The position numbers and the translations under genes were made by a program. Below the pieces are notes generated by a model. That model was not told the origin of the DNA. It saw nothing but the letters and a program-made list of their open reading frames with translations, and did not search any database. A DNA stretch of 64,000 nt, taken from Rhodamnia argentea (taxonomy: Eukaryota; Streptophyta; Magnoliopsida; Myrtales; Myrtaceae). Shown piece by piece: positions 6,653-61,566 of the stretch. The stretch's first letter is position 1; each line of letters begins with the position of its first letter. The stretch lies in the NCBI RefSeq assembly GCF_020921035.1, contig NC_063158.1, positions 26,584,962 to 26,648,961 of the forward strand, written 5' to 3'.

Positions 6653-7441
6653 TAAAAATAAATTGAATTCAAAATTGAAAAATAAAATAAAAATAGTAAC
6701 TCCTACTTGAACAGTTACACTGTTCTAATGGGTCACGAAATTTGTTTTATAATTATAATTTCAAAAATAACAAATAAAAAATATGCTCAAGCCTAATAAT
6801 CGCGCACCGCCATATAGATAACGTGGATGTGGCTCATCAAGCCCATTGTCTTGATTTATAAGACTAGAAGACCTATGACCCATAAACTACAAACTTTCCT
6901 ATGTAGGACAAGTTTAAGCACCATCTTGTTTGTTTTACAATCAAACAAACAACCACCAGGGTCAACATTGTCGACGACTTGTTTCGCGAGTCTAAAAAAG
7001 GAATTGAGATAGATCGATTAAATGGTCCTTTCAAGAATTTGATCAGGTTAGAGTTGATAGGAACAGTGTGAAGGGGATGGGATGCCCGTGAGATCAACAG
7101 TTGCTCGAGGATCTACCGGGAGCGAACGGGACATCATGGATAGTCGATTTCAGCTTAATCCTTATATCTCCCAACCTCATAAACTACTCACCACATTCGC
7201 TCAACTCAAGTATCTTAGAACCATGTGGTCACCATTGAGTCGATCTTGCCGTCTCTGCAACTATTTATGTTAAAGCTACTCAATGAGAGCCAGAACGAAT
7301 ATGATGTGATTGTTGGTTGGTTGTAGCTGAATGGGAAGGAAGGATGAGTAACTGAGAATAAATCTCTAAAAAAATTCGACTGCTCGGATGATCTCCTATG
7401 GAACCATCTCAAGAGGTTTTTTTTTTTTATAGAAAGTTTGG
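6653..7441. other. intergenic downstream of the dead PORR gene
   Basis: Contains what would have been the 3' untranslated flank of the PORR gene (minus strand, below 7442). Several 60-75 codon ORFs occur on both strands without recognisable motifs. A short word LDDLLWNHLKR-like at 7385-7415 (plus) hints at an old gene piece but is too little to call. Confidence 0.4.
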
Positions 7442-7474
7442 TCAATCACTCTCTGAGTTTTCTTGCCATTTGTT
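7442..7474 (-). pseudogene. last codons of interrupted PORR gene
   Basis: On the minus strand these bases read NKWQENSESD and then stop (TGA at 7442-7444). If the retrotransposon 7475-18568 and one target copy are taken out, this joins in frame to CIHLMN encoded at 18574 upward. This is therefore the severed C-terminus of the PORR pseudogene at 18574-19430. The joined frame ends naturally at this stop. Confidence 0.7.
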
Positions 7475-7861
7475 TGTTGGAGTATGGGTCTTATGGTGTG
7501 CCGTCGGGCAACCACACCCAACCCACTGCAAATAATTGCCAAGGCAGTTATCAGTAGTTAATTTGAAACTTGAGAAAGTCACGTCTTTTAATAGACATAA
7601 CTTCTCTCTCTCCCTACATATTAGTTTGTCATTAGTTTTCACATACACGAAATAGAGAAAGAACGACGCTCTCTTCCCTCTACTATTGAATGGCATTCGA
7701 GCTTAACTGAACTCTCGAGACTACAAAGGCAACATCTAATCTGTGAACTATACGGTACGTCCCTCGTGTAATGTATCATTTGATCGGTGATTTAAGTTTT
7801 CGATATTTTAGGCTTGTTTCCACACATTTGATGTTTAGAACGGAGGATTTAGTGCCATTCA
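7475..7861 (+). repeat. 5' LTR of outer copia element
   Basis: 387 bp, TG...CA ends. It matches 18185-18568 along its length with scattered substitutions and small indels (shared blocks TTTGATCGGTGATT, TTTCCACACATTTGATGTTT, ACTCTCGAGACTA). The PBS starts 2 bases after it. Confidence 0.85.
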
Positions 7862-8511
7862 TTGATATCAGAGCATGTTTACTTGTTTTTTTTTATTATA
7901 CGCTCACCGATTGAACCATGTTTCATACACTGTTGTTAGAAGAGTTCTTTGTTCGTTTTCATCAGTATGTTGTTCATTCTTTTTCTGGAAAATTGGTTCA
8001 ATGAAAATACAATGTGTATATATATGGTTAGTATCTACCCGTCCATATGAGTTTAAGAAGTGGTCGCCCATCGCCGGAGGAAGCTGGAAGACACCACACA
8101 GCATTACACGCACTATGATGGGGCGACGCTCCTCGGGGACCGTAGTGAAAAATTGTAGTTTCGTGAACTTTCATTCAACAAAAATGCATTTTGATCATAT
8201 CATCGGAATGGTCTTGGCCATACAAACATTTTGAGGGGAAGAACGTCGCTATCGAACAATGGACGAAGCCGTTCGCGTCAATAGAGCGATCTGCACGTGG
8301 GCCTCGGGCACCCACGTATGTCGCACGTGCCGGGAACCGTCTGCAATCGCTTGCCGACGTAGCGCATGGGTGGCGATAACGTGGCTCCCTACTTGGCTCT
8401 GTACATGGCCGATGATGTGGCAGTCTGACCTGACCTAGTTGACCCTTTGACCGTTGACCATTAATAAAAAAAAAACCATGTTGGGGTTCATGCGGGGCGT
8501 ATGACGTCCAA

Positions 8512-8939
8512 TTGGGGGTAATTTTGGTACCGATATGTTCGTATCAAAATTTTCTACAATGTGGTATATCTATTTTACCATATTATGCGTCAAGGATTTT
8601 GATTAATCCCATTTTTTCCTCATTGATTGTAGGAAAAATGCCTTGGATGATGCGAACCCCTATAAGAGTGGACAGTGATGAAAAAGAAGAAAGAATCTTA
8701 AGGCTCAAGAATACCTTAGCTCTTTACCGCTGGAATGCTCAAATGGCATGATGTCACATATAAAGAAGGTCAAAAAAATGATCCAGGAGATCATTTGGAA
8801 AGGTCATAGAATGCCAAATGACACGAGGGTCACAACGCCGGGAACCACTCTTCCTATGGAGTGGCATGGGGTCATCGATCATATGTGGGATATCAACCCC
8901 TGTTCATGCAAGAGTTGTGGAATTAAATTCCTAAAATGA
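8512..8939 (+). other. ORF pair in long leader of outer element
   Basis: Two adjacent plus-strand ORFs (8512-8751, 79 codons; 8748-8939, 63 codons) overlap by 4 bases within the unusually long (about 1.7 kb) stretch between PBS and gag. They contain a basic/acidic segment (DSDEKEERILRLKNTLALY) and a Cys-rich tail (NPCSCKSCGIKF). I do not recognise either. They may be remnants of sequence captured by the element or chance ORFs. Confidence 0.25.
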
Positions 8940-9557
8940 GTATATGAGCAGGGTGAATGCAAAGGACGTCGACCCTGGCTATGAATGGGTCTTGGCAGAG
9001 GCAAAATGCCTCCTAGTGTAGGGGGAGTAGTACCCCAAGAATGGGTCTTGTAGACTCAAAGATTTTCCTGGTTTTGACGAGTTTGTGGAGTCATTTCCTG
9101 TTGTTAGAAAATGATACTGGAGAGGAAATTGATGCTTTGTTTCAATTCCTTTAGTTTCTAGGTTTGTGAATATCTCAATCATGTTGTTCTTGGAGTTAAT
9201 TTGTCAGTCCGTGAATGCTTCCTACTGTTGTTGGTTGTGAATATTTTATGAAATATTTGTTTGTGAGTAAAATATCAATTTCTATTTTATAATACTTTAG
9301 CAGTACTATATATTTGAATGAGGAGTTCTAGAGAGTTTTAGTGACCTTTAAAGAACTTGATTTTATCTAAATGGTTATATTAATGATAATTTCAAATGAG
9401 GAACCTTAGACGATGATTGGGAACTTAGTAAACTTTCGAATCTAAGTCCTTATGTTAAATTATACATTAGTATAATTAATTAGTGCAAAACGTGTCCATA
9501 ACTATTAGGCAATAATAATTCGTGTGAAATGTCTAAATTACCTCATATTCAAATACA

Positions 9558-10440
9558 ATGGTAACGGCTTTAAAGAACATCGTGGATGGGCTCATTAAGG
9601 GCGATAAGTTAAACGGTGAAAATTATAAGATTTAAAATATGAAAATCCAGTATGTGCTAGAAGAGCTAGAGGCACTAAAGGCCATTTAACTTGATCATGA
9701 CAGAACTAGAAGATGGAACCACTACGCAGCGTAAAAGAGATAAGGATGCCTTTATCGCTTGGAAGAAAAAGAGCTCAACTGTTCGCATTACATTGCTAAG
9801 CAACATGGATAATGATACAATGCAAAAGTTCAAGCAGCATGAGAATGCAAAGGATCCGTAGGTTACATTAAAGATTAGGTTTGGGCGGACTTCGGTCACC
9901 AAGTTGAGGCAACTTACAATTAGATTCGACACATATAAAATGCCACATGGGCATAATATGAAGCAGCATTTGACGCGCATGTCGAACATGATCAGTGAGC
10001 TCAAGGATGTTGGTCACATATTATTCGATGACCAGCAAGTGCAAGCAGTGATCCGTTCTTTGCTCCATAGCCGAAAACATATAAAAGTTAACCCGACCCA
10101 TAACGAGAATGTTAAAACCTTCGCGGATGATATGCGTCACCTAGAGTTGGAGGAGGATAGCTTTTTGGCGGCTAAACCACAAACTAATGTATATTTTACT
10201 AGCTCTCGCTCACATAGAGCTTCTAGCTCCAAGCGCAAGCATCCTAGAAGGTTCAAGAAGTGGAAAGGTAAATGAGCGGAATCATTTGGCAAGAAATCAA
10301 AGTTTGAAAAACATGAAAAAGGGAAGCGTCCCTTTAAGAGAAACATTTCAAGCGTGAAATGTTATAATTATAGCAAGAAGGGTCATTTCGCTCGCAATTG
10401 TGGCAAGCCGAAGAAGGTGAAAACCCTTGGTACACTTAAA
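9558..10440 (+). pseudogene. gag remnant of outer copia element
   Basis: Starts MVTALKNIVDGLIKGDKLNG, a typical copia gag opening, then breaks at stops (near 9630 and 9690). It continues in the frame of 9904-10275 (INxxxxTYKMPHGHNMKQHL-type region with EMxxL spacing, ISELKDVGHI) and ends in a nucleocapsid zinc knuckle at about 10357. That knuckle reads CYNYSKKGHFARNC, where the second cysteine of CX2CX4HX4C is replaced by Tyr. Codons are interrupted by several nonsense changes, so no functional Gag can be made. Confidence 0.7.
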
Positions 10441-10539
10441 AGTGTTAGTTATATATCAAGTTCTATATTTCTAATTGAATCTCATCTTTTGAAGGGGAAG
10501 CTTTCATGGTTACTGCACTAGAAGAGGACAAGCTAAGGA

Positions 10540-11230
10540 ATGTAAATGAGGCTCTATCTTGTCTTGATAAGAAAAAATGGATGAAAGCAATGGAAGAACA
10601 AATGGGGTTAATGAGATCAAACTAAGTTTAAAACTAGTTAATCTTTCAAACAAACGCAGTGCCATTAGGAACAAATGGGTTCTTAAAATAAAATATAAGG
10701 CTAATGGCTCAACTGAAGGATACAAGGCTCACCTTGTGGTGAAGGGGTATAACTAATAGGAAGGGATTGACAATGAAGACACTTTTTCTCCCGTAGTAAG
10801 GTTTACCTCAATTAGCCTTATTCTGGCAATAGTGGTCGACTTGGATCTTAAATTACAATAAATGGATGTAAATACTACTTTTCTCAATGGACAATTAGAA
10901 GAAATCTACATGAAATAACCCATTGGGTGTTACTGAAGGCCAAAAACAAAAAGTATGATGACTTTTGAAATCGATATATATATATAGCATTAAGCAGTCT
11001 TCAAGATAATGGTACATACGATTTCATAATGCCATATTGGCATATGATTTTCAGATGGCTAATGAAAATAATTGCGTATATATCAAGAGATCCAAAGGTC
11101 ATTTTATGATCTTATCATTATATGTCGATATACTAATTATCTTGTCAAGATAGTCAAAAGTTGGATATCTTTAATTTTGAAATAAAAGATATGAGTGAAG
11201 CTATATACATTCTTGGAGTTAAGAATTCAA
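10540..11230 (+). pseudogene. reverse transcriptase remnant, outer copia
   Basis: Begins with the copia RT opening (KKWMKAMEEQ, then NKWVLKIKYKANGS and YKAHLVVKGYN). It continues through DVNTTFLNGQLEEIYMK and reaches the catalytic region at about 11115, which reads LSLYVDILII: one aspartate of the YVDD box is gone. Multiple stops (for example adjacent TAA and TAG at 10753-10758) show it is dead. No protease or integrase lies between the zinc knuckle and this RT, implying an internal deletion before or after insertion. Confidence 0.7.
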
Positions 11231-11599
11231 GATATCGTTCGAAAAGGTTGTTGTCTCTTTCGTAAAAGACATACATAAATACAGTCCTTGAACGGTTTTG
11301 TATGCAAAACTATAAGTCCATTGATACTCTTATTGCAAAAGGTGAGGGTTTGAGCCTCAAAATGTGTCCTAAGACTCTACAAGAACAAGAACGAATGAAA
11401 AATGTTTCTTATACAAGTGCCATTGGATAATTAATGTACGCTATGATATGTGCAAGACCTGATATTTGTTGGATGGTTGGATTGGTGAGTAGATACCGAT
11501 CCAAATAATCCAATCCAGGTCAAGTACATTGGACTGCTATCAAGAGAATCCTAAGGCATCTAAAAGCTATAGCTGATTATGCAATGAGTTATCAAAGAA

Positions 11600-11964
11600 G
11601 TGATCCGCACCTTGAGAGCTAAACCGATGATGATTGGGGAAGAGATTTAGATGAGAGAAAATCCACATGTGATAATGTGTTCTTACTGAATAATGGCACC
11701 GTATCATAGAGCAATAAGAGGCAGAAGTGTGTAGCTTTATCTACCATGGAAGCCGAGTTCGTGACTTTGTCGACGACAGTGCATGAGGGTGTCCGGCTTA
11801 GGAAGTTTTTGGATCATGTAGGTGTTACTAGTGATATTACAAATCCAGTTTTGGTATACTGTAATAGCCAAGCATCAATAGCTTACACCAAAGATCTCAA
11901 ATTTTATTGTAAGACCAAATACATAGACATTATGTATAACTATGTTAAAGATGTAGTTGCATGA
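11600..11964 (+). pseudogene. RNase H remnant, outer copia
   Basis: The longest piece, 11746-11964, starts MEAEFVTLSTTVHEGV, the copia RNase H core around the AEF/AEY catalytic segment. It continues with PVLVYCNSQASIAY (equivalent of the CDNQSAI motif) and KTKYIDIMYNYVKD (equivalent of RTKHIDIRYHFVRD). Upstream pieces (DDDWGRDLDERKST near 11628) supply the first catalytic region. A stop at 11707 precedes the last piece. Confidence 0.7.
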
Positions 11965-12454
11965 AAGGTTATGAGCATATAGTATATATCTACACATAGA
12001 ATGTTAGCAAATCCAATGAAGAAATTGATTCCTAGGGATGTTTTTCATAGTCATGTGAAATCTCATGCACTGCATAAAATGTAATATACCGAATATTGTA
12101 ATTTGCCCGAACGTTCACGATTAATGAAGTTTGAAATGATTGCCTATGAATTTTTTGTAATATTTATGGACAACAAAGCTTGGTGCTTCATGTTGAGAAG
12201 GTATGTCAAACGGATGAGAGATTAGCCCACTCACACGGGTAAGCGCCTCTATTTATTGCGTGATGAATAGAGATGAGATGAAATTTAAGCTCATTATCTA
12301 TGTGATAATTGAGAGCTCGAGCTTAAATATAGGTGTCACCTCAACAAAATGTTAAGATGAAGACTTAATATTTATTATGTCCGAAAGTGAAATAATCCAC
12401 ATATTTCACTTTATCTATCTTTATTGCCAGATGTGAGTTCTAATAAACACTTTT

Positions 12455-12641
12455 TGTGGTCGTGAGCTATTTTAGCCTGTTTGTTAGGAAGTTTTATTAT
12501 TATATAGTATACTTCCTAGTATAGAATCCTTCCTATTGTATATCTCATAATTGGAGTTATTAGATGTCTTATATATATATTGAATATTGTAAAATGTATA
12601 GAAAAAAATATTCATGGAATGAAAAGAGAGTTTTCTCTTCA
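12455..12641 (+). repeat. 5' LTR of inner copia element
   Basis: 187 bp, TGTGG...TTCA. It matches the 3' copy closely; the main difference is a TA-repeat length change and about 11 bp of net length. It contains a TATATATATAT stretch likely serving as promoter TATA region, and an AATATTCATGGAATGAAA block shared by both copies. Confidence 0.92.
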
Positions 12642-12730
12642 TGGTATTAGAGCCTTAGGGTTTGATCCTTTGGGTATTGCACGTCAATCGTCGACTACGG
12701 CGGTCCCGATCTTCTTCGGACTTTATCTCA

Positions 12731-13720
12731 TGGTTGACAAACAGCCGATTGTTCCAACTAACCAAGCGAATGCTAGTGCCTCTGCTACTACCATTCTAGC
12801 GGACCCGACCGCTACGATGAAGCGGCTCTTGACCTAGCAAGCCATGCCGCCGAGCGTTGAACCTCCTGCTGCACCGATTGCTGTCAAGCTTGATGGAAAA
12901 AAATTATGGAGTATGGTCACAGGTTGTTGAGATGTACGTCTCGGGCAAAGACAAACCGGGCTATTTGAATGGTGGTTCTCCCGAGCCCCCTCCTACCGAT
13001 CCGTTTTTTCGACAATGGAAGACCGATGATTCTATGGTAAAAGGTTGGCTTTTCAATTCTATGGATCCAGCCTTGATACCAAACTTTATTTGGTTTCCTA
13101 CTGCCAAAGCCGTATGGGATTCTATGGCAACAACCTTTTTTGATGGATCTAATACCTCCCAAATCTGTGATCTTAAGAGGCGATTTCTCAATCGAAGCAA
13201 GGCGGTGGACCCATCGAGAAATATTACAATGATCTTCAAGGGCTCTGGCGTGAGATTGATTTCCGACATCCTAATCCTATGCAATTCTCGGCCGATATTC
13301 TAAAGTATAATTACATTGTCAATGAAGATCGAGTTTATACTTTTTTGGATGGTCTCGATGATCGCCTGGATAATGTTCGTATTGACGTTACGAAGATGGA
13401 TCCATTCCCCACTAGCGAGCAAGCTTATGCCTAGGTCGGGCGAGAGGATATGAGCCAATTTGTCATGCTCTCCACTCCTGTCGGGGTCACCTCCGGTTCC
13501 ACCATGGTGTCACAATGGGGTAAGGGTGATTCGCACCTCCAGTTAGTGTCTTACGCCCCGGGAGCTCACCCTAAACCTTGTATGCCAATTCAATCCGAGG
13601 GGTGCTCTCACTGTGGGAATCCTAAACATACAGCAACATCTTGTTTTAAATTGCATGGTTATCCGGACTAGTGGGATGATTTTCGGACCAAAAAGAAGCA
13701 ACAAGGCTCATAGAAGGGGC
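12731..13720 (+). pseudogene. gag remnant of inner copia
   Basis: Opens MVDKQPIVPTNQANAS and is broken by TAG at 12835-12837 and a frameshift near 12895. It resumes as the copia N-terminal/UBN2-type gag (YGVWSQVVEMYVSGKDKPGY, then TDPFFRQWKTDDSMVKGWL and NSMDPALIP). A further break lies near 13220, and TAG occurs at 13432-13434. It ends with a single C2HC knuckle (CSHCGNPKHTATSCFKLHGY, intact CX2CX4HX4C) before TAG at 13669. Family: short-LTR copia of the Ale/Retrofit kind, by resemblance. Confidence 0.8.
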
Positions 13721-13743
13721 GGAATGGAGGGCAAGCCTCCTCG

Positions 13744-14740
13744 GTGATTAGCGGCTTGTCATTAATTCCCATGGAGTCTCGAATCGCTAATGCCAAATCT
13801 CTTAAAGGTAATTATGGATTTTCCTTTGCTAATGGACGTGGTGCTGATCATCATGGGTGGATAATTGATTCCGGCGCCACTAATCATATGACTCGGGAAT
13901 CTGGTGACCTTCTTACATCTACTACACCACGTTGAGATCATATTTACAATGCCAATGGGCATAGCTTTCCTGTGATGGCTACTGGGCGTGTGTCTATCAC
14001 GCCTTCTCTCTCTCTCTATCTCATACCTTACTTGTTCCTACATTGTCTAATCATCTATTATCGGTTGGACAACTTACTAGTGAGTTAAACCGTGTTGTGC
14101 TTATGTACCCTGTTTTTTGCCTATCTCGGGACATACTCACGAAGGAGATTATTGGGCGTGGTACTAAGAGGGAGGGGCTATATTTTGTGGATGAAATTAC
14201 TTATGGACGGACCTATCATTCTCATGGACAGTTAGCTCAAGAGAAGGAACTTTGGTTATGGCATCATCGTTTAGGTCACTCATCCTTTGGGTATTTACGA
14301 CATTTATTTCCCAAGTTATTTCATGGTCTATCGGACTCTAGTTTTCAATGTGATACATGTATTTTGGCAAAAAGCCATCGTACCTTCTTTCCTCCTAGTT
14401 CAAATATCAATTCCACTCTTTTTCCTTAATTCATTCTGATGTATAGGGTGCGTCTCCTATTACTACTGTATCTGGGTTTCGATGGTTTATCATCTTTGTT
14501 GATGATTGCACATGTATGACTTGGCTATATTTGATGAAACATAAGAATGAGGCTGAAGCTATCTTTCGAACTTTCCACCGTATGATTCGGACTCGGTTTG
14601 GGGCCAAACTTCAAGTTCTCCGGTCTGATAATGGTGGTGAAGACTTAAGTAAACCTCTTGCGGCTTATTTTCGGGAACATGGTTTGATGCATGAAACTTC
14701 TTGCCCTCGGACTCCTTAGCGGAATGGTGTTGCTGGCGCA
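13744..14740 (+). pseudogene. protease and integrase remnant, inner copia
   Basis: The protease active region reads WIIDSGATNHMT (13857 onward), the copia D-S/T-G motif, then a TGA at 13933. The GAG-pre-integrase segment follows (ELWLWHHRLGHSSFGYL, then CDTCILAKSHRTFFP), carrying the HHCC zinc-binding residues. The integrase core follows (FIIFVDDCTCMTWLYLMKHK, then LRSDNGGED), so the D,D part of the DDE triad is visible. A one-base frameshift near 14420, TAG at 14444 and TAG at 14717 interrupt it. Confidence 0.8.
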
Positions 14741-17230
14741 AGAATCACCATCTTCTTGAAACCACTCGAGCACTGTTGGAGGGTAGCCATGTTCCCTATC
14801 GTTTTTGGGATTACGCCATAGTCATAGTTGCTTATTTATTGAATTGCATGCCTTCTCGCATTTTGAGCTATCGCACGCCAATGCAATCGCTTGCCAACCA
14901 TGTGTCTCTTCCTTCGGTTCTTACATTGCCTCCTAAGATGTTTGGGTGTGTCACTTATGTCCATCTTCACAAAAATCAGCGGACCAAACTTGACCCTTGT
15001 GCGATCAAATGTGTGTTTCTTGGCTACGGCCCTTCTCGGAAAGGGTATCGGTGCTATGATCTTGCCGGGAAGCGCACGTATGTCACCATGGATGTAACAT
15101 TTATCGAGGCAGAGTCCTTTTTTCCTTCCCCCCGGTGTCCTGTTCGGGGAGAGACCGGATGTAGAACCGGACATTGGTGGGAGGTTGGGACCGTAAGAGC
15201 GACGGATGGGTGCGCACGAATGCACGATTCCGAGGTTGAAGTTTTTGAAACTGCGCCTTACGGTAGTGAGATAAGCGCATGGCCGGGCAGCACAGAAACA
15301 GTGGCAACCGAGCTACAAACGCACGATCACGCGCTCCGGACCATACAACCGTGAGGCAGCACCGAATTACTGCATGGGTCCGAACAGGTATCAACCAATT
15401 CATAGCTGCAACAGCCTCCCTCATCTTCACCCTCTTCGCCATCTTCAATACCACTCCATGCTCCCGAGAATGTACCTCGGGTAAGTACTTCCACCGTACT
15501 TGATTCTTTTGAAGATACCAATGTGCTTCTTGGTTATAAGCTACCTAATAGGCATAATAGGGGTAAACCACCGAATCGATATTCTCCGGATATAGAGGAC
15601 CACCGATCTCGATATCCTATTGTAGACTATGTGTCTACCAAGAGGCTGTCCACACCACTACAAGTCTTCTTGTCCATGGTTTCCTCGGTTCAAGTTCCAA
15701 ATAGGGTTGAAGAAGCCATGAAGGATCCGAAATGGCTTTAAGCAATGGAGGCAGAGATGGAGGCGTTGGAGAAAAATCGAACCCGGAAACTTATGGAACT
15801 ACCAAAGGATAAAAAGCCTGTTGGATGTAGGTAGGTGTTTACAATCAAACATAAGGCAGACGACACTATTGAGAGGTATAAGGCGCGACTGGTAGCTAAA
15901 GGGTATACACAGACTTATGGGGTGGATTATCGGGAAACATTCTCTCCGGTTGCGAAATTAGACACTATAAGAGTGTTGTTATCTCCGGCTGCAAACTTAG
16001 ACCGGCCTTTGCATCAATTTGATGTAAAGAATGCATTTCTTCATGGAGATCTAGAGGAGGAGATCTATATGGAGCTTCCACCTGGATACAGATGTGCAGA
16101 TCAGTCGAACATGGTTTGTAAGCTGGAAAGATCATTGTATGGGTTGAAGTAGTCACCTCGTGCATGGTTCGGTCACTTTAGCTCGACAATGAAAAGGTAT
16201 GGATACTCCCAAAGTAATTCAAATCATACTTTATTCTTAAAAGGTGCTCAAGGAAGAATAACGGCTCTTATCATATATGTAGACGATATGATTATTACGG
16301 GCAATGATAGTGTAGAGATTATGAGACTGCAGGAATTATTATCTAAGGAGTTTGAGATGAAGAACTTGGGAGATCTGAAATATTTCCTCGGAATTGAGGT
16401 TGCTAGGTTGAAGGAAGGGATTTACTTGTCTCGGCGGAAGTATGTTCTTGATCTTTTGACCGAAGTTGGCATGCTTGATTGCAAGCCTACGGACACTCCT
16501 ATGGTACAAAACCGTAAGCTTGGAGAGTACCCCGATTAGACGCCTACTAATAAAGAGAAATACCAAAGGTTAGTAGGCCGATTGATTTACTTATCACATA
16601 CACATCCTGATATTGCTCATGCAATAAGTGTGGTGAGTCGGTTCATGCATACACCTAGTGAGGATCATATGAGTGCTGTGTTGCGCATCATTCGATATTT
16701 GAAATCAACCCCAAGAAAGGGGTTGCTATTTGCAAAGAATGGCCACCTTGAAATAAAGGGTTACACAAATGCAGATTGGGCTAGAAGTGTGACATATAGG
16801 AGGTCTACATCGGGGTATCTTACATTTGTGGGAGGCAACCTTGTTACATGGAAAAGTAAGAAACAAAAGGTTGTAGCTCGATCTAGTGCAGAAGCTGAAT
16901 TCGGAGGTGTAGCAAATGGGTTATGCGAAATTCTATGGCTTCGGAAGTCGCTAACCGAGCTCGGGTATCCACCAGGTTTGGAAATCAAATTGTTCTATGA
17001 TAATAAAGCAGCCATAAACATTGCTCATAATCCAGTTCAGCATGATAGAACCAAACATGTGAAGATTGACAGACATTTCATCAAAGAGAATTTGGATGCA
17101 AAAATGATCTAGTTACCATTTGTCAAGTTTGAAGATCGGTTAGGCGATATATTGACAAAGGTTGTGTCAAGTAGAGAATTTCATTGCTCACTTATCAAGT
17201 TGGGTATCAAAGACATCTTTGCACCCACTT
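14741..17230 (+). pseudogene. integrase tail, RT and RNase H remnant, inner copia
   Basis: The integrase C-terminal part (LLNCMPSRILSYRTPMQSL, KCVFLGYGPSRKGYRCYDL) runs to about 15130. RT starts near 15745 (AMEAEMEALEKNRT) and continues with [20 protein letters not shown] and [20 protein letters not shown]. It has an intact YVDDM box (about 16281-16295) and DLKYFLGIEVAR. RNase H (ADWARSVTYRRSTSGYL, SSAEAEFGGVANG, FYDNKAAINIAHNP) ends with the KHVKIDRHFIKE block. Stops at 15739, 15832, 16150, 16537 and 17110 break it. The catalytic residues themselves look preserved. Confidence 0.85.
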
Positions 17231-17239
17231 GAGGGGGAG

Positions 17240-17437
17240 TGTGGTTCTGAGCTATTTTAGCCTATTTGTTAGGAAGTTTTTTTATTGTATAGTATATTTC
17301 CTAGTATAAAATCCTTCCTATTGTCTATCTCATAATTAGGGTTATCGGATATCATATATATATATATGATAGGATTGAGTATTGTAAAATGTACAGAAAA
17401 AAATATTCATGGAATGAAAGGAGAGTTTTTCTCTTCA
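17240..17437 (+). repeat. 3' LTR of inner copia element
   Basis: 198 bp, TG...CA ends, immediately after the purine tract at 17230-17239. Followed by target copy CTTTT (17438-17442). Confidence 0.92.
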
Positions 17438-17442
17438 CTTTT

Positions 17443-18184
17443 GAGCAGATAGGTACGTGAACTCAAGTTAGACTTTGAGTATGTCAAGCTATTGTATGTA
17501 CGGTATTAAATGGATAGACATACATTCCATGGGGAAGGAGAAAATACCGTAATATGTATTTCATATTACGTATGCATGAATCGACCAATGAGAGTAGGCA
17601 GAAATTTAAGCTCAATTTTTAAGCTTGTGAGGCTCTCGATGATAAGAATTCCTCATTTGGTGCCCTCACGATTCTTCATTATTCTCAAGATTTCTATTTA
17701 GTGCTTGCTATCTCAAAGTGTTGCCTACGGTTATGAGATTGATTCGATCTAATGCGAAATTTCTAAAAAAGCAAGCTGAACTAAGATTGAGAGGTCTAAT
17801 GGAAAAGGAAGATCGATATAGAGTTATAAGTCATGTCATAGGTTTGTATCATAGGCTGATCGGTTATAATTATTTTGTGTGATCATAATTGTGAATATAA
17901 TATATCATAATTAAAAGAGATCGAGAGATATATATGTATGTGACTGATCGATCTATGATACAACATATGAAAATCTATTTTTGATTATATCTAATTTTGA
18001 GCTATTATATACTCCCAATAGATGTAAGGCAACGAGCTCTCAGTATATGTTGGTCGAATGGATTATTTATCAATATGAATTTTGGAAAGAAGAGAGTTAT
18101 ATTTGACTCTTTGTGGGCAAGTGGCATTTGTTAGTCCCCCATGGGCAAGTGAGAGTTATTTGCCCTACATGGGCGAGTGAGAGA
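17443..18184 (+). other. 3' non-coding part of outer copia element
   Basis: The outer element's sequence between the inner insertion and its 3' LTR. It has no coding motif. Near its end a 26-28 base word (ATGGGCAAGTGAGAG-like) repeats about three times (18110-18184), ending in GAGTGAGAGA, which is purine-rich and could be the polypurine tract. Confidence 0.6.
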
Positions 18185-18568
18185 TGTTGGAGTATAGACC
18201 TTATGGTGTGTCGCCCATGTGGACAACTACACCGAACCCATTCGAGATAACTGCCAAGGCAGTTATTTTGAAACGTGGCAAAGTCATGTCTTTTGATAGA
18301 CGTAACTTCTCTCCCTCTCCCTATACATCGGTCCGTCGTTAATTTTCACATATATGAAACAGAGAAAAAATGATGCTCTCTTCCCTCTATTGTTGAATCA
18401 CATTCGAAGCGAACGGAACTCTCGAGACTATAAAGGCGACATCTAATCAGTGGACAATACGATACGTCTCTCATGTGATGCATTGTTTGATCGGTGATTC
18501 AAGTTTTCGATGCTTTAGGCATGTTTCCACACATTTGATGTTTAGATCAGAAGATTTAGTATCCTTCA
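18185..18568 (+). repeat. 3' LTR of outer copia element
   Basis: 384 bp, TGTTGGAGTAT...CCTTCA. Pairs with 7475-7861. Divergence between the two LTRs is clearly higher than between the inner element's LTRs, in keeping with the outer element being older. Confidence 0.85.
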
Positions 18569-18573
18569 GTGTT

Positions 18574-19430
18574 CATCAGGTGAATGCACCTATTCCTCAT
18601 CTCCATCAAAGGATGCTGCTCGACTAGGGAACCCCCTTTTAAAAATGCCTCTTTCAAACTTTTGACATATTCTCCCTCCCTCTCTGTGTTCTCGGAAACA
18701 AAAAGGATTTTAGAAGCTCATTTATGACCAGCAACGACCCGTTATCAGATTCGGCGATAAATTCGACCAGCAGAGGCAGAGTCAAGTCAAATCCACTTCT
18801 TTAACTTCTTATCCATCTCAAAACCTTTCGAAAAATGCATAGTGAACTCGATTCGGCATACCCTTTCCTAGGATCAACCGCTCTCTATTCTACGACTGAT
18901 TTTGCCAAATATCTGCTCCGACGGACCAATTCAAGAACTCGAAATCCCTCGCCATGCCCACTACACGGAAATAATAAGGGAACTCAGAAACAATGCTCTG
19001 AACAAACTCTTGTGGGGCGCAAAACCCGCGTCCCATTTCAGCCGCTCAATAATGTCGAACGGCATTTTGAGGACCTCCGATATCATCAATGGGGGCGTAT
19101 CGGGATAGGGAAGGCATCTCTACTCTCGGCGATCAGGGAAATGGGGAGCGATTTGGAGGGCTTCCTATCTGAGGAGGTTCTTGAGGTTTGACATCAAGAA
19201 CTCCTCTTTGTCGAAGGCGTGGTCGAGGCCGGGGATCGTGGATGGATTTGACGGGTGCCCGTCGTCGCCCCGAGGGCGATCGAACTGGGGTCTGCAAAAG
19301 GGCATGGCTTTCATAGAGAGGATCTTGCTAATGCCAATGCGTTTCGGGAGAAGATGGTGTTTTTGAGGAAGAGGCTGCGATTCAAGAACAGGGTTTTTGA
19401 GAGCATCCCAGGGCTTAAAAGAAGAGGCCG
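18574..19430 (-). pseudogene. PORR-domain (WTF1-like) pseudogene
   Basis: Minus-strand pieces match the plant organelle RNA recognition (PORR) family, which binds group II introns in chloroplasts or mitochondria. In order they are: GLDHAFDKEEF then SNLKNLL (about 19170-19215); KPSKSLPISLIAESRDAF (19105-19160); LKMPFDIIERLKWD then APQEFVQSIVSEFPYYFRVV (about 18960-19065); MHFSKGFEMDKKLKKWI (about 18790-18840); INELLKSFLF; and GSLVEQHPLMEMR then NRCIHLM (18574-18632). Stops and frameshifts separate them. The middle of the domain, between the FPIPIRP and LKMPF pieces, is missing, so the gene is much shorter than the usual 350-450 residues. The true C-terminus lies across a retrotransposon at 7442-7474. 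The N-terminal (transit peptide) start is not identifiable. Confidence 0.8.
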
Positions 19431-19470
19431 TTGCTTCCTTTCTCTCTGCTTCTAATCTTATAATTGGAAT

Positions 19471-20063
19471 TTTTTCAATCTATCTCGATTAAAATAATGC
19501 CAATTTGGTTCAATGTCAATCTTATAGGAGTTGTTTTTCATATCCTAATGACTTATTCAGTTTCCAATTCATATAATTTGTTCTCGGGTTATTGTGTTGT
19601 TGACTACATTGTCTCGTTGATCGAATCCTTTCTAAGATCGTGTCCAATTATCATATATTATATCGTGGGACGGTAGGGTAGTCTTGAATGCAATGAACAA
19701 CTTGATCAATTGCAGCATTCTCCAATTCGCAAATGTCAAATACAGAGATTGCCCACACATCTTTTTGTGAGACAGACGGCTCGTTGGCATAGTGGTCTAG
19801 ATCAAACTTTGACATCCTCTTTCTTTTTTTTTTTTTTGGGCGCTCCTCGATTGATGGTAATTCCTAAGATTGATGTGTTTTAGGAAAGTTCCAAACTTTG
19901 GTTAGCGATGAAATCTAAGTTGGATGGCCACTCGAATGCTATTTATATTAATGATGGTCAAGATCTTGTAAAACCAAAACCGAGACAAAAGGAGCGCAAA
20001 GACCAAGTCCACTGTGGAGCTCGAAACAAAGGAATCGAAGCGCGATAAACAGTTGAAGCAGAA

Positions 20064-20139: not shown

Positions 20140-22133
20140 ATGATGAACACCCTTGGTTGGAGTTGCAAAGGCAAAATGATGAAACTTTCGTCAGCATTGT
20201 GCTTGTTTCTCATTCTCATCGTTGAAGAAGCATCTTGTTCCATGAGACTCCACAAGCTCTCCGAGTTCCATGCCAAGCTCCAACAGAGAGTGGCCTACAG
20301 TCCAGAGGAAGACCTCGCCGCGCCCGTCGCCACGCCTGGTCCAGACGGTGCCAAAAGGGTAAGCGAACTCGCCGTTTCGTTTTCTGCATTTCTTGGCCAG
20401 TGTCCGAAGTTTCTTAATGTCTAAAGGAATGATGAAATGAAGGCCAATGTGGCTGTTTTCACTAGAACATGTGTGGTGGGTTGGTGCCTTTTTTTTTTCC
20501 AGATGGGGAGGGTATTCTATCCAGTGGGGTATGGGGGTGACCCAACAGGGAAGCAAGAGAGCAGCGAGGCCATCGTAAGTGCTCTGTCTGATGCATTCCG
20601 GGTTCAAAGTGACGAGCAAATGCTGCCTGGAGTGACTGCCTTGGGTGGTGTGGTCATTGATTTGCAAGGTGGAACCTACCTGGTCGCCAAACCCATCAGG
20701 CTTCCTGCTTCCGGGGGAGGCAATGTTGTGGTCAGTCTCTCTCCTCTCTCTCTCTCTCTCTCTTGATTGTATCTTCAGTGCTTCTCTTTTCAACTTTGGT
20801 GGGGTGTGTGTTGAGTCTTCCTCATTCAAAATTCTCCACTCCCAAAAGGTGCTGCTTTTGAGAATCAAGCATTTAAGGCTATTTACACTCTACCAACTGC
20901 AGTCTGTCCATTGCCAACTCCCTTCCCCAGATAAGCCTCCAGTGGTAAGCAATAATGAACTTTTGCTTCCTCTGAGGACATCATCAAGTTCATCAATTCA
21001 TTGGATCGAGTTTCAATATTCTGTTCAAATTCACTGCTGCTTATGATACAATGTCGCCGATGATGCTGAATTAGGTACAAGGGGGCACCCTGCGCGCATC
21101 AGAAACATTTCCCGGGGACCGGCATCTCGTTGAACTCTGGTCCCCGAATTCTCCAGGTGCCAATGACCAATCAACATGTTACCCGATGAAGGTCGAGAAC
21201 GTCGGAATCTACTATGAGGACATAACTTTCAGAGATGTGCTCTTTGATTCTAGTTTCCGAGGAGGAGGAATTTACGTGGTTGATTCGGCGAGAATTCGCA
21301 TAACGGACTGCTTCTTTCTTCACTTCACCACGGATGGAATCCTAGTGAAGAAAGGTCATGAGACATTCATATCAGGATGCTTCCTAGGACAACATTCGAC
21401 AGTCGGTGGGGATAAAAGAGAGAGAAGCTTCACAGGCACGGCCATTGATCTTCAGAGCAACGACAACGCGATTACTGACGTTGTCATCTTCTCCGCTGCT
21501 GTGGGGATTGTTCTGCGAGGCCAGGCCAACATGGTCACCGGAGTACATTGTTACAACAAGGCCACATACTTTGGTGGGATCGGAATACTGGTAAAACTAG
21601 CCGGACTATCGCAAACCAGACTAGACAATTGCTACATGGATTACACGGGCATAGTCATGGAAGACCCTGTTCAGGTACACGTTACTAACGGATTCTTCTT
21701 AGGCGATGCTAATATAGTATTGAAGTCGATAAAGGGTCAAGTCTCGGGGTTGAATGTAGTGAACAACATGTTCGACGGTGACCCACAACGTCTGAATCCA
21801 ATAGTAGTCCTGGATGGCCAATTCCCTAATGTCGATGAAGTGGTGGTCGATGGCAACAATGTGAACGGAATGAGTTTAAGAACGACGGTAGGGAAAATGA
21901 CGTTGAAAGGTAATGGGACCAAATGGGTTGCTGATTTTTCGTCTACACTGCTCTTTCCGAACCGGATAAATCACTTCCAGTACTCCTTCTATGCTCAAGG
22001 AGAGATGGGGTTCATCAAGCATGAGATAACTAATGTATCGAACAACGCAGTGGTCGTCGAGAGTGAGAAAGCAGCAAACGCCGTAGTTTCCGTTGTCGTC
22101 GACCAGTACAGCATGGCTGGAGAAGTCATCTAG
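20140..22133 (+). CDS. QRT3: QRT3-like polygalacturonase
   Basis: Three exons: 20140-20358, 20503-20730 and 21075-22133, both introns phase 0 with GT-AG ends; 501 codons plus stop. QRT3 proteins degrade pollen-mother-cell-wall pectin so that microspores separate from tetrads; they are secreted. From the second Met pair (20176) the protein opens MMKLSSALCLFLILIVEEAS, a good signal peptide, so 20176 may be the real start (489 residues; Arabidopsis QRT3 is about 480). Exon 2 starts MGRVFYPVGYGGDPTGKQES, the N-terminal pectate-lyase-3 fold segment. Exon 3 holds the beta-helix: GGTLRASETFPGDRHLVEL, GILVKKGHETFISGCFLGQH, RSFTGTAIDL, NKATYFGGIGI and GIVMEDPVQVHVTNGFFLGD. The reading frame is fully open. 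A decayed partial duplicate lies at 2360-2612. The second intron starts next to a CT run (20740-20763). Confidence 0.88.
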
Positions 22134-28744: not shown

Positions 28745-29944
28745 GGCCTTCACCCTTCCTCCTGCTGCTTCTCTCTTCTTTCTTCTTCGGCAAAGCAACG
28801 TCGCACCCAGCCTCTCGCTCTAGCTCGTTCCCGATCGACGCGAAGGAAATGGAATATTCCTCTGTACGTACGGTACTGCGTCGATTGACCGCTTGACTCA
28901 GCTCACGCTTTATGAAATTGGCCGTCCGATTCAAAACCAAAAAAGATCTCGTCCGTCCAAGCAATCTTAAAGCATTCACTGACTGATAATTTACTAACAT
29001 CCAAGATTCATTACCGATCGTGGAATTGTAATTTTTACAATCGGTTGAAAAAAAATTATGACAGCCAAGGAAATCATTTTAAAATAAGTTTTCGTTAATT
29101 TATGAACTTAAAAATCGATGTTATGATCTCTTAGCTAAACTTATTAAGAACGATTAATATGTTTAATGATACATTTAGGTTTCTTATTATTTCTCAAATA
29201 AAGTTACGGTTATTAAGACCTACGAGAGAATCTGAGGTAATTGATCGTGGATAAAGATACATTACATGGACTTAAAGGTAACTTAAGATTATCAAGATCA
29301 AACAATTCTATCGCTCACATAATTTGAGGTTAGCTACTACGGCATTGATTAGTTACCGAGTGATGATATTCTTAGTTCACCAACCATATAGCTAAGTCAC
29401 TTTTGGAACATAGAAATTACTGGCATTGAAGATATAATTATGAACCACATGAGATATGAATTATCACCTCTTGAACTTATTTTGTTCTTATTTAGACATA
29501 GTTGCTAGGGGTATGAACCGTAAAAATCGGATCGGACCGGACCGGATGGAATCTGTCGGCGTTCAGCAATTCCCGATTTGGAACCGAGAATAATCAGTTT
29601 GGTTCCTAGTTTTACTTGCGAAACCGAACCCTCGCATCAGACTAATATGTCTTTTCTTTAAATTTTTTTTTCTTTCAAAGAACAAAGAAAAGAAAATTGT
29701 TATCTCAATTTCATGAACATAGCCACGTAGGAACCAGCCTGCCGATCCGATTCTTGATCCTATGATGGACCGGACCAACCTACCTGAGAACCGATCATTC
29801 TTAATAGTTGAACAGCAAACATCTTTGATTTTCTCAAAACATGGCTCAATCAAAAGAATGTATGCGAAGTCAAGAATGGAATTGCAGATCGATCACAGAA
29901 CATGCCTCGATCAAAGGCAGTTGGATCCCAAGAGGACCCGACCG
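28745..29944. other. spacer between CCT and RRM genes
   Basis: Presumed CCT promoter/5' UTR at the left. About 29500-29830 holds an interspersed-repeat-like stretch rich in CGGACCGG and GAACCG words with partial inverted complementarity (GGTTCC/GAACC). No gene recognised. Confidence 0.4.
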
Positions 29945-30682
29945 TTACTCAGCCGCCTGATCATCGCGCGGCGGAGGAGGACCGCAAGTCCGAGGCCGAT
30001 CGTACGCTTCCTTCCTGGGCCTCGCGAGCTCCACGTAAACCATCCTGCCGTCGAGTTTCTGCAGCGAAAGAGATTCAGATGATGGGCAATGGATCGAAAG
30101 AGAGCGGAGGGAAAGAGAATGGGGGGGGTGGGCTGAGGCACCTTACGGTCCATGTTCTCCAGAGCAAGCACCGCATCGTCTTGGCAGGTGTACTGAATGA
30201 AAGCGTACCCTTTCGACCGTTTGGTCGCTTCATCCTTGGCGACTTCGACTGGGACCAAGGAATCAATCAGAGAACCACCAACAGACATTCCACGCAAATC
30301 CAATTTGGAACCGGAGCTTACCTTGGGCGACGTGTCCGAAAGTAGAGAACTCCTCGAGCAATCTACCTTCGTTCAGAGAATAGGGTATATCTGGCGAAAG
30401 GAACAGAACCCAGGACCAGATAATTCAATAAGTATGCTCGATCTCCGATCAAATTCTATCCTTTGTAATCTTCTGCTGCCTCAAGAGAAAGACGATGGGG
30501 GGGGGATGGGGAGACATCCACTTACTCCGAACGATGATTCGGCTGGCGAGGGGGTAGTCGAAGAAGGAGGACCTCACTCTCAGCTCGTTCCACTTTCTTC
30601 TGAATTTGTCCGAGTTGGTGGTGCCATGGGAGGAACAGGAGAGCGACGGGGGAAGGGGGATTTGGGTCGGCGCTGCCCACAT
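29945..30682 (-). CDS. small single-RRM RNA-binding protein
   Basis: Four exons (minus): 30682-30526, 30390-30322, 30248-30142, 30058-29945; 447 bp, 148 residues. All junctions are GT-AG and the frame is continuous; an in-frame TGA lies two codons before the Met. The N-terminal 45 residues (MWAAPTQIPLPPSLSCSSHG) are Ser/Pro/Arg-rich and could be an organelle transit peptide. A single RRM follows: RNP2 is RIIVRNIPYS (residues 48-57) and RNP1 is KGYAFIQY (about residues 89-96). The loop LEEFSTFGHVAQVEVAKDEA precedes RNP1, and KLDGRMVYVELARPRK completes the fold. The tail is Pro-rich and short (GPPPPRDDQAAE). It resembles the short plant organelle/glycine-poor RRM proteins; I cannot assign a specific target. 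A GA microsatellite (30734-30754) is in its 5' leader. Confidence 0.88.
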
Positions 30683-32353: not shown

Positions 32354-32977
32354 CTAAACTTGGTAAGGCAGATCGTCCATGGGATACCCACTGAAGATAT
32401 CCTCAGTCGCGACGTCCATGAAGTTGCTAGACAGCGGCATGGTCGAAGCAAAAGCATCATCAGTGTCGGTTACCTCATTGAATGAGGAATTCATCATACT
32501 CGCATACTCCGATTGCTCCTGGTGCAACTGCTGTGATGGCCTAGCTTGATGTTGGACTTGGACACCATAGGAATAATCGCTCCGAAGAGATGCCTCCGCA
32601 GAAGAGACCACCTGCTGCTCGTGCCCGAAACCCACAAAACTCAAGTTGAGCGGGCTGCAGCGGTGGGTCGACCCGAAAGAGATGGAGGTGCTAGGGCAGC
32701 CAGTGAATTGCTGGACCAGGGCTCTGAAGTTGGTGGTGTTGGCATTAAGGATGGTTGTCGGAGTCTTCTTCGACGCTCTTGATCTTCTTCTGGTTGGCTT
32801 TGATTGGCTCTTGATGATGCTGTTGCTGTTGTTGTTGCAGCCGGGGTTGGCGGGATTTTGATCGGTGCTGTTGCTTGAGCTCATGGAGGTGACAATGGTG
32901 GAGTCAACAAATTCAGCCTGCGGATCAACGCTCTGCTGGTAATACTGAACCCACTCCTCACTTCCATTGTTGGTCAT
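32354..32977 (-). CDS. VQ22: VQ-motif protein, VQ22/JAV1-like
   Basis: Intronless, 207 residues. The VQ motif FRALVQQFTG is at residues 84-93, preceded by the basic segment RRRSRASKKTPTTILNANT, an arrangement shared with the Arabidopsis VQ22 (JAV1) group. VQ22/JAV1 represses jasmonate-dependent defence and interacts with WRKY factors in the nucleus; function here is inferred from that family. The N-terminus EEWVQYYQQ is also typical (EWxQFY of VQ22). The C-terminal half is Gln/Ser/Asp-rich with a conserved-looking end (SSNFMDVATEDIFSGYPMD). Upstream there is a TATA box at the right distance and two W-boxes. Confidence 0.88.
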   Translation of the reverse strand: MTNNGSEEWVQYYQQSVDPQAEFVDSTIVTSMSSSNSTDQNPANPGCNNNSNSIIKSQSKPTRRRSRASKKTPTTILNANTTNFRALVQQFTGCPSTSISFGSTHRCSPLNLSFVGFGHEQQVVSSAEASLRSDYSYGVQVQHQARPSQQLHQEQSEYASMMNSSFNEVTDTDDAFASTMPLSSNFMDVATEDIFSGYPMDDLPYQV

Positions 32978-35852: not shown

Positions 35853-38800
35853 CTACTCTACCGTTATTTCCAGAATAGTCGTAAGTCTTGGCTTTTTGTA
35901 TCTTCTGAGGAGTAAAGAAGAGCACACGACACTCACAGACGAGAAAGCCATGCACGCACCAGCCACCCACGGTGGCAACACTATCCTCAACCAAGGGAAG
36001 AAGGCACCGGCCGCAACCGGTATCGCAATCGTGTTGTAGGCCATTGCGAAGACGTAGTTCCAGCGGATCCGTGCAAAGGTCTTCCTAGATAGATCAATGG
36101 CTGTAATCACATCTTCTAGGTTGTTCCTCATAAGAACATAGTCGGCAGCTTCTATTGCTATGTCAGTCCCTGCCCCAATAGCCATGCCCACATCCGCAGC
36201 AGCCAGAGCAGGAGAGTCGTTGATTCCATCACCAACCATAGCAACAATGCTCCCATCCTTTTGGAATGAGCAAATAACTTCCGCTTTTCCTGCTGGCATT
36301 ACCTCCGCCCTCACATCTTCTATGCTGACCTGCATAGGGACGAGAAACATCAGACGCTTAGAATTATGCACAGAAGCAGGATATTTCCCATTGACAAGAT
36401 AATTACCCATCAAACACAAATATAAATATTTGTTTCAGACTCAATGTGAAGCTACATATCAAATTTGTAAGAAAATTAGCACAAGGCCAAATTATCCATG
36501 TCAAATCTCTTGAATGCTTTTGAGAGGTGCACATATTAAGTTGCGAGAGGAAAGTGAGAAGACTCCATATGTCTTATGTACAGAATCCACTAACTCCGCA
36601 AACTCCTGCAAATGCATTTAAATCCCTGGAAAGTAGTGATCTCTACGTACCTCCTTGGCAACAGCTCGAGCTGTCCTCCAGTTATCCCCTGTCACCATTA
36701 CAGGCCTTATACCCATCTTCTTAAGACCTTCTACAACCACAGCGGCTTCCCTTTTCAGCGGATCAGCGACCCCTAAAACACCGATCAAGGCATCACCACA
36801 TGCAACAAGTATGCCCGTTTTTGCACTTTCTTCAAGCTCTACAACAAAATTTTCCACATGAGTTGGAATGGCAATTCCACTTTCAGCCAACAGCTTCCGA
36901 TTGCCAACCTGTCAAGTTATGTGTCCAACAAGCATGTTAACATTCTATCAAAAGGCATATAATTTAGTTCAGCAGCAAAACTTTAAATCTTCACTTCGGA
37001 AAACTCACCAGTACTAGCTTCCCTTCAATAAAGCACTGAATTCCCCTTCCTGGAAGAGCAGAAAAACCTGTGACATCTTGGAGCCAGCCAGAAATCTTTG
37101 ACTCCTTGGAGTTGGTAGAGTCATCAGTTTCAGAAGGATAGTCAAAGAAATGGAAATGGCGAGCATACTCCACAATGGCTTTCCCCAGAGGGTGTTCACT
37201 GCTAGCCTAGTTGAGATAAGCATGGTAAACAATTAAAATGCAATGTCAAAAACAAAGTCCAGAATACCAGCATATAACAAATCATTTAAACTACAGCCTA
37301 CATCTCCAGAAAAGCCAATGCAAGCAGAGTCCTGTACTTTGAGCTAAGGCACTCAAAAGTCTACAGACCAAATTTAGGTCCACAACAATTGCAAACTAGG
37401 AAAGTTTCTATTTGAAGTCAGCTTTCCATGTGACTAAATTAGCTTAACTTAGTAAAGCAGTTAGGTATCATGTTCCAAGGCAATCATATCGCAAATATAA
37501 AATGCCTGCATAATTCTACAAATCAATTACCCAAATCATGTCTTAAGTATCCATGATTGGTAAATTTCAGTAGGTGATAGTACTTTTTAAAATGTTTTCG
37601 TAAAGGTTGCGAACAAGTAGAATCTCTTTTAAAACAAACCCTGTCCAAAGCTAGATGGTTCAAGATATGATCCTCACACAATCAGTTCAGATTTTCTATA
37701 CAGTGATGACATAATAAGAACTGATGTTTATGGTCCTGTTCTACCATGGCCATTGCAGTTTTCTAAAATGTCTGCATCTGCAATTCCATTTGAACAAAAT
37801 ACTGCCATGTGTGTGCATTTCTCTCTCTTTCTGTTCTTTCTCTCCAGGAGAAATGGGGAGCCGGGACTTAAATAAACAAACAAAGAAGAGATAGTTACCT
37901 CTGCGGAAGCCACCAAATTGAGGAACTGTCCACGGTCCATCTCATTAAAAACTTTTGCCGTTGTGACAGTGGCTTTCCCCTGTGTAAGGGTGCCTGTTTT
38001 ATCGAAAATTACATACTTAACCTTCTGGGCTCTCTCCAAAGCCTCTCCACCTTTTATCAACACACCATTGTTAGCACCAACCCCTGTTGCCACCATCACA
38101 GCAGTAGGTGTTGCCAACCCAAGGGCACAAGGGCAAGAAATAACTACTACTGATATTGAGAACATCAGGGCAAGAACAAAGTAATTGCTCTTATCTGGCA
38201 GCCACTCTTCTGGATAAGCTCCAAAAGCGCCCGCAACATACCTGTAGACAAGTAAAAAGGGTCTTGGTGATTGTGCACACCTACCACGTAATATCCAATA
38301 ACAAAACTACTTAGCGGTTCCTCAAGTTCAGTTAACTTCGCAGTTCGATCCCTGATTTTGAAAACTGAGATTTTACTCTCCACAGTTCATTTTTGTGTGA
38401 TTTTGATACTCTGACCTTATTTACGCTGAACTTGGGTGACCATTCTCGTATGTCACGAAAATACGGGACATAAACGGGGTCATATTTTGACTGTTTCTAT
38501 AGTTTCGTAACTATGTGGTGATTCAGCTAAGCCATGTGGAAGAATTATGAACCAAATTCAACACAAATAGTGGTGAAAGATCATAATTGCAAAATATTGA
38601 ATGTTTAAAGACTAGATACCAAATTACAGAAAAGGCCAGCTAGGGACTATGAATGCCGTTTTCTCTTATCAAATCATATTGAAAATCATATTGAAAGTGG
38701 ATCAAACGTAGAACAAGTCAGGTATTGTACTCACCAACCCAAAAATGTCAAAAATGACAAAGCCACAACAGTGGGGACAAAGATGCTCGCAATCTGCGAG

Positions 38801-41800: not shown

Positions 41801-43365
41801 ACCAAGTATGATCTTATCCTGTTGACTACTTTGCACCAGTGAAGCTTCAAAACCAGCATCTTCAATCGCATTGACTATATCATCTTTGCTGATTACGGAA
41901 GGATCGTATTCAACTTCACCTAATGATGTCGCCAGAGCAACTACTGCTCCCTTAACACCAGGAAGACTTCTCAAGATGCCTTCGACAGAATTAACACAGG
42001 CTGCACAAGTCATTCCTCCGATAGTGAACTGACCTAAAAGAGTTTTTGGCTGCTTTGTTTTTGAAGAGCTTGGTTCAGGCAGAATCTCTGCCTCAAAACC
42101 TGCATCTTCAATTGCATTCTTGATGTCTACTTCCTGAATCACGATGTAGTCACAAAAAACTGTCAAAAGTAAGGAATAAACAACTCAGTACTTAATAAAT
42201 AAGCCACAAAAGCAAAATTAGACAACAAATAGGCTAAGTAATGTCTTCTTCAGAGGTAAGTCACAATGAAGCATCCGCATCCCACGTTGATTAAAAAAGA
42301 AAGTGTTCACTATGGCTCGAAGTTCATCCCGATTGATATCAAATCAGACCCATTACTAAAATTGCAAGGAAACCCGGGCCATAATAGGAAAGTCAAATTG
42401 GACTCTTGCCAACAGGATCGTGGGCGATGCAAAAAGCTCACCACTTCCGCGTTAGCCATAAAGAGAAGGAAGTCAAATTTCGCTCCGACAACACTGGAAG
42501 AGACATAAATTATGCCTCACAATATCAAACAGATGTACCCCGAATAGTTTAGTTCAGCAGGAGAATCCACAAAATCCTACTTTGTCAATGTTGATGAAGT
42601 CCATCAGCAGAATAGGTGAATAATCACAAAATGAAAGTAAAGAATGATCCAAAAAGGTTTGGCCATTAAATTCTGTAATCCAGGCAAGATGCAATTACAA
42701 TGGAAATCTAGTTTCTGAAACAAAGGGGTAATGCTAACAACACCACAAGAGAACTCTGAAGAATGGGACACTGACCAACAGTTGGAGTTGGAAAATAAAC
42801 TGAACAAAGCTTGAAGCAGGCGATCCTCCTGAGATTACTTGATCTAATTGTGAAGAACAGAAAGAGCAAGCAAAAATGGCCGACTTGAGCTCACGAGCCA
42901 CTAAAATAAACGAACTTCTCAAGCTTTGAATCCACGACCAACTAAGTCTACCAATGATCCACGAGCCATCTCCAACTTTGCAAAAGATGCACAAAGTAAA
43001 AGATGAGGAGCAGAATCCAAGTAGCATCAACTGACCTTGACCAAACTAGGATCGTAGACGACGTCAGCCCTGTTCTGCAACAACGCCACGGAGGCTCTCA
43101 AGACGCCGTCGACGCTCCGGAGAGCCTCCTCCACGGAATTCGAGCAAGCAGCACAGGTCATCCCGGTCACCCTCACCTGAATCCCCCTCATCCCCTCCTC
43201 CCCGGCGCTCTCCGGCGAGCTGTCCTCGTACGAATCGAGAAGCCTGACGTCCTCGAGGTCCCCGCCGCCCTCCAAGTCGTCTCGGGCGAGCGCGGCGGCG
43301 CCGGCTTTCCGGTCGGCGCCGCCGGAGAAGCGCGACAGCTGGAGGTCGGCGAAGCGGGGCGCCAT
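35853..43365 (-). CDS. RAN1: copper-transporting P1B-ATPase, RAN1/HMA7 type
   Basis: Pumps Cu+ into the secretory pathway; the Arabidopsis orthologue RAN1/HMA7 loads ethylene receptors. Nine exons (minus): 43365-43036, 42133-41519, 41195-40766, 40625-40300, 38793-38735, 38241-37899, 37206-37009, 36908-36651, 36329-35853; 3036 bp, 1011 residues (RAN1 is 1001), every junction GT-AG and in frame. Two heavy-metal domains with GMTCAAC are at residues 68-74 and 150-156. A third HMA-like domain (about 213-280) lacks CxxC, as in RAN1. Catalytic parts: TGES 506-509, CPC metal site in the sixth membrane helix 623-625, phosphorylation site DKTGT 667-671, SEHPL 704-708, TGDN 840-843, GDGIND 886-891. The C-terminal membrane helices carry YN and MAFSS metal-site motifs. 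All residues needed for activity are present. The fourth intron is the longest (38794-40299). Confidence 0.96.
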
Positions 43366-57959: not shown

Positions 57960-58059
57960 ATTGGTATCGAGCCTTGGTTCGGATATTCTAGATTGTGATT
58001 TGGGGCTTTGCTTGTCGATTATTATCTGGATATCTTGTGATTGCAATTATGTGGAGTGA

Positions 58060-61440: not shown

Positions 61441-61566
61441 GACTAAGCTTAGCTCAAGCTTTGCTTGAGCACTATTGGAGAGAGTGAGCGCCGTGGAGGC
61501 GTTGGGAGGAGGATAGATGATGAGCATTATTAACTGGCTTCAAACATCGAGCCAAGGTGGAGAATT

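Follow-up and report, generated by a model that had tools for sequence, protein, structure and literature searches.

Does a retrotransposon that sits in the last codons of a decayed plant gene mark the cause of the gene's death, or did it land in a copy already dead? This question is raised by a locus of Rhodamnia argentea within the 64,000 nucleotides of contig NC_063158.1 analysed here (26,584,962 to 26,648,961; hereafter the window). An outer Copia-type LTR retrotransposon (7475-18568) lies inside a minus-strand copy of a PORR gene, in the opposite orientation. PORR (DUF860, Pfam PF11955) is a plant organelle RNA-recognition splicing-factor family that includes OsPORR1/FSE5. In the available part of one report the family is described as plant-specific, and group II intron splicing activity is given for relatives (PMC12359027). 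At this locus an old insertion, itself hit by a second element, has left its empty site legible, which makes it a clean example of its kind. Comparison with related species could put a date on one loss of a PORR gene in the lineage of this plant.

Outer Element and Target Site

The 5′ LTR of the outer element (7475-7861, plus strand, 387 bp) starts with TGTTGG and ends with CATTCA; the 3′ LTR (18185-18568, plus strand, 384 bp) starts with TGTTGG and ends with CCTTCA. Alignment of the pair covered 377 bases at 83.0% identity; the differences comprise 50 transitions, 14 transversions, and 3 indels, and the K2P distance is 0.199 (standard error 0.027). Directly at the LTR edges, the TG...CA ends are flanked on the plus strand by TTGTT (7470-7474) on the left and GTGTT (18569-18573) on the right, which agree at four of five bases. 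Agreement at four or more positions was found in 389 of 20,000 random pairs of 5-mers drawn from the window. Because the identity sits exactly at both LTR ends, the two copies were taken as a target-site duplication with one later change. The initial annotation had read TTGTT/GTGTT in the same way, and its coordinates for the insertion proved right to the base when the flanks, both LTR ends, and both duplication copies were re-read. A primer-binding-like site, TTGATATCAGAGC, adjoins the 5′ LTR (7862-7874, plus strand) and resembles the initiator-Met type.

Coding remains of the outer element were located on the plus strand. The gag remains (9679-10518) consist of a match to Pfam Retrotran_gag_2 at 9904-10272 (2.1e-07), a second one under the family cut-off at 9679-9858 (0.03), and a zinc-knuckle-like piece at 10276-10518, which was seen by eye and had no Pfam match. 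Remains of a reverse transcriptase followed by an RNase H-like piece, the latter recognised by eye, occupy 10571-11961; two RVT_2 traces were detected (8.6e-05 and 0.024), both under the curated cut-off, and 11710-11961 was matched in Pfam by two other families, each below threshold, but not by RNase H. No integrase was detected in the eight pieces of the outer element submitted to the Pfam scan, which were taken from outside 7862-9678 and 17443-18184. The outer integrase seems to have been lost, since a mere 52 bases separate the open piece ending at 10518 from the one starting at 10571. Between the 5′ LTR and gag, nothing was recognised by eye over about 1.8 kb (7862-9678), and this stretch is perhaps an unrecognised insertion.

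Nested Inner Element

A second Copia element (12455-17437, plus strand) is nested in the first and is flanked by a perfect duplication, CTTTT (five of five bases; 12450-12454 and 17438-17442). Pfam matches to gag, pre-integrase, integrase, SH3-like, and RVT_2 domains were obtained, among them gag_3 (8.5e-06) and RVT_2 (4.2e-35), with rve (6.6e-13) at 14447-14716 upstream of RVT_2 at 15835-16149. For the RNase H-like piece (16540-17109), Pfam returned no family. The LTR distance is 0.098 in the inner element against 0.199 in the outer one, roughly a twofold difference, and the two distances therefore fit the nesting order, the inner element having inserted later.

Both elements resemble nested plant Ty1/Copia elements in their paired TG...CA LTRs, their 5-bp duplications (four of five bases in the outer and five of five in the inner element), the primer-binding-like sites beside their 5′ LTRs, and their domain content, with Retrotran_gag_2 and sub-cut-off RVT_2 in the outer element and gag_3 and RVT_2 in the inner one. 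They differ in that the outer element is worn, with RVT_2 traces below threshold and no integrase in the eight scanned pieces. Such wear is nothing unusual for old plant elements. The event as a whole is of an ordinary kind, one Copia element nested in another within a PORR copy that has decayed.

Identity and Lesions of the PORR Copy

The main part of the gene copy lies right of the outer element (18574-19406, minus strand), where nine pieces chosen by eye can be read in order from a possible start codon at 19406 to CIHLM. The resulting read-through of 293 codons matched PF11955 with 70.5 bits (E=1.6e-19; cut-off 22.3), which bears out the earlier PORR identification for the part adjoining the element. 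Three single pieces matched the profile in its own order, at positions 129-156 (E 0.039), 187-208 (E 0.025), and 292-323 (E 6.1e-06), and the C-terminal piece alone reached 25.9 bits against the same cut-off of 22.3. Overall, PORR was matched by four of seven queries in a first Pfam set (the three single pieces and one combination; two other pieces had no match at all) and by five of eight in a second set that included the read-through, the remaining three being one N-terminal piece and two pieces that included the stretch preceding the C-terminal block. In a third set one of three queries matched, the C-terminal 71 residues at profile positions 294-323. Judged by these matches, the C-terminal two thirds of the copy are PORR. 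Neither the first 109 residues nor smaller N-terminal pieces of the read-through matched a Pfam family, and the frame piece for profile positions between 209 and 294 had no PORR match (at best VPS9 in the first set, E 0.23, and nothing in the second); we tentatively assign both to PORR by their order. The N-terminus read from 19406 looks presequence-like by eye, and the copy would once have been functional.

A second PORR copy was not found in the window by tblastn (best of four matches outside the locus, E=1.4). Neither of two matches in a search for a solved PORR structure was named as PORR (best E=0.14), and when bacterial and archaeal genome contigs were searched with the 52-residue C-terminal piece for a plant contaminant bearing a PORR gene, none of 188 pattern matches was confirmed.

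According to the available part of its description, rice OsPORR1 has 399 aa with the domain at 65-385, a short tail behind it, and conserved Phe-Tyr at positions 344-345, and is encoded by a single exon (PMC7947098). The copy resembles PORR factors such as OsPORR1/FSE5, as far as that part describes them, in that its C-terminal two thirds follow the profile in order and its tail is short; it differs from the rice protein in being broken, in being shorter at 293 codons read through, and in having an N-terminal third that Pfam does not recognise (PMC7947098).

As read by eye over the nine pieces, the copy carries eight frame changes and two internal stops, and the stop count is too low because the pieces were picked for being open. 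Pfam backs two of the eight frame changes. Joining a frame 1 to a frame 0 piece (profile 106-156) raised the score to 28.5 bits, vs 13.4 for frame 0 alone, and the other is the return to frame 1 for the piece matching profile 187-208. Profile positions 210-294, 85 in number, are represented by only 44 residues, which leaves about 41 codons missing there; this lost stretch ahead of the C-terminal block would presumably have carried the conserved Phe-Tyr of the family. With the domain incomplete in this way and the first 109 residues outside any family, the copy is, on the evidence of its sequence, a pseudogene rather than a working member. If the presequence was as long as the 64 residues given for rice OsPORR1, we estimate that about 60 more codons are missing before profile position 106, which would bring the original total to about 394, near the 399 aa of the rice protein as described in the available part of that source (PMC7947098).

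Elsewhere in the window, a long direct repeat pair (57193-57960 and 61566-62293) probably represents the LTRs of another element. The two copies show a single difference in their first 89 bases, but over its full length the pair is interrupted by 25 short gaps, of which 21 fall in the right copy, and just 27 of its 57 substitutions are transitions; the gap pattern is perhaps a local assembly error. As this indel pattern could reflect assembly error, some of the PORR frame changes may be unreal too. That several of them are errors, leaving the copy less damaged than it appears, is nevertheless quite improbable: the outer LTR pair beside the gene is rich in transitions (50 of 64 substitutions, with 3 indels), the pattern that true ageing should leave, and the copy lacks profile positions as well.

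Joined Flanks and Candidate Gene End

When 7475-18573 is excised, the minus strand reads VEQHPLMEMRNRCIHLMNKWQENSESD and then a stop (CIHLMN-KWQENSESD-stop). The last codons beyond the element (7442-7474, minus strand) are N, K or T, W, Q, E, N, S, E, S, D, and stop. The residue after the N had been given as K, which holds with the left duplication copy; the right copy gives T (N-T-W) equally well, with the frame unchanged. The initial annotation had also rested on the two flanks joining in one frame. They do read through to the stop, but the join carries no information, because the left flank is open for at least eight codons in all three frames (10, 25, and 8) and chance opening is common, with 12,114 of 20,000 random positions open for 10 codons. 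The Pfam match stops on the junction codons, at profile position 322-323 of 326, and the tail past the K lies outside it. The insertion point and the sequence of the empty site stand. The claim to have found the original gene end was overstated: it concerns just 33 bases, and by chance a frame of this length is more likely open than not. As a candidate, (K/T)WQENSESD is a plausible true C-terminus, since rice OsPORR1 likewise has a short tail after the domain in the part of the report available (PMC7947098). Among the matches listed in a search of paper texts for the C-terminal peptides IHLMN and YIHLM, none was on PORR by title.

A run of 12 A (7417-7428) is present 13 bases past this stop. 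Its place directly behind the stop is what would be expected if the copy were a processed retrocopy. The longest word common to the 37 bases behind the run and to 19380-19700 is only 6 bases, a length reached in 407 of 500 shuffles, and the window holds 13 runs of A or T this long, the one at 7417-7428 included. The absence of introns cannot discriminate here because OsPORR1, in the part of its description available, is itself single-exon (PMC7947098). A retrocopy origin is very improbable, and we rejected it as no duplication was found flanking the run at 7417-7428.

Effect of the Insertion and Order of Events

Whichever LTR end and whichever duplication copy is taken (four combinations), the reading of the interrupted gene runs through LMN and four further residues to a stop. 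Nine tail residues were thereby swapped for four LTR-encoded ones and the end of the PORR domain was retained, while the original 3′ side of the gene is now 11 kb away. For the C-terminal piece, the Pfam score was 25.5 bits when the joined tail was attached, 26.1 for the LTR tail, and 24.4 without a tail. Since a change of the tail alone leaves the score nearly unchanged, the insertion by itself need not have broken the protein, and the case illustrates that an insertion in a coding region need not be the killer of its gene. It is conceivable, if unlikely, that the gene worked on for a time with its last four residues and stop, perhaps also its 3′ end, supplied by the LTR, and died later of other causes.

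The following order of events is, taken as a whole, highly probable. A Copia-type element would have inserted in the opposite orientation about 10 codons before the PORR stop, making the 5-bp target duplication, and a second Copia element would later have inserted into the first. The first insertion would have spared the end of the PORR domain, replaced the nine tail residues by four, and cut the gene off from its original 3′ end. Decay of the copy through frame changes, stops, and internal losses would have followed, or had already begun. Loss of the 3′ end or silencing may have affected the PORR gene.

The amount of decay bears on whether the element struck a living gene. Neutral change since the insertion was set to half the outer LTR distance, and 3000 simulations were run for stops. 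Two stops were observed in the read-through against 2.2 expected (1.1 to 3.8 for distances of 0.05 to 0.2). The indels expected since the insertion number 3.4 for 866 bases and 4.5 for an assumed original 1160, and eight frame changes were read by eye; one-sided P ranged from 0.16 to 0.48 across five settings with 6, 8, or 10 frame changes. These values fit neutral drift since the insertion, with death at about the time of insertion.

It is a serious prospect, somewhat short of an even chance, that the PORR copy was already dead, for example as a partial or decayed duplicate, and that the element hit a pseudogene. The excess of the eight frame changes over the LTR-based expectation (3.4-4.5) points this way, as do the roughly 41 missing codons, for which the insertion itself does not account. 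However, this excess lacks statistical significance (P 0.16-0.48) and disappears once the count is limited to the two Pfam-backed frame changes, and the number of stops equals that expected since the insertion. It is about as probable, again short of an even chance, that the insertion began the death of the gene through loss of the 3′ end or silencing rather than by breaking the protein. A decay roughly equal to neutral drift since the insertion and a 3′ side removed by 11 kb agree with this, but the insertion would have left the domain end undamaged, with a new four-residue tail behind it. The initial annotation had left undecided whether the insertion killed the gene or hit a dead copy, and this caution was justified, as the decay counts are not decisive. 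Among the matches listed in a literature search for PORR genes with a retrotransposon insertion or PORR pseudogenes, no such case was found by title.

Other Features of the Window

Several gene-like features were noted in the window outside the PORR locus. A right-handed beta-helix protein is encoded on the plus strand at 20191-22133, with a Pfam Beta_helix match (2.1e-06) at 21186-22130; we take it to be possibly polygalacturonase-like. On the minus strand, a piece at 29911-30303 carries part of an RNA recognition motif, and a VQ-motif protein is encoded at 32354-32977. VQ genes are generally of plant origin. Open frames resembling, by eye, exons of a heavy-metal P-type ATPase extend over 35853-43482 on the minus strand, with HMA domains at 41474-42166.
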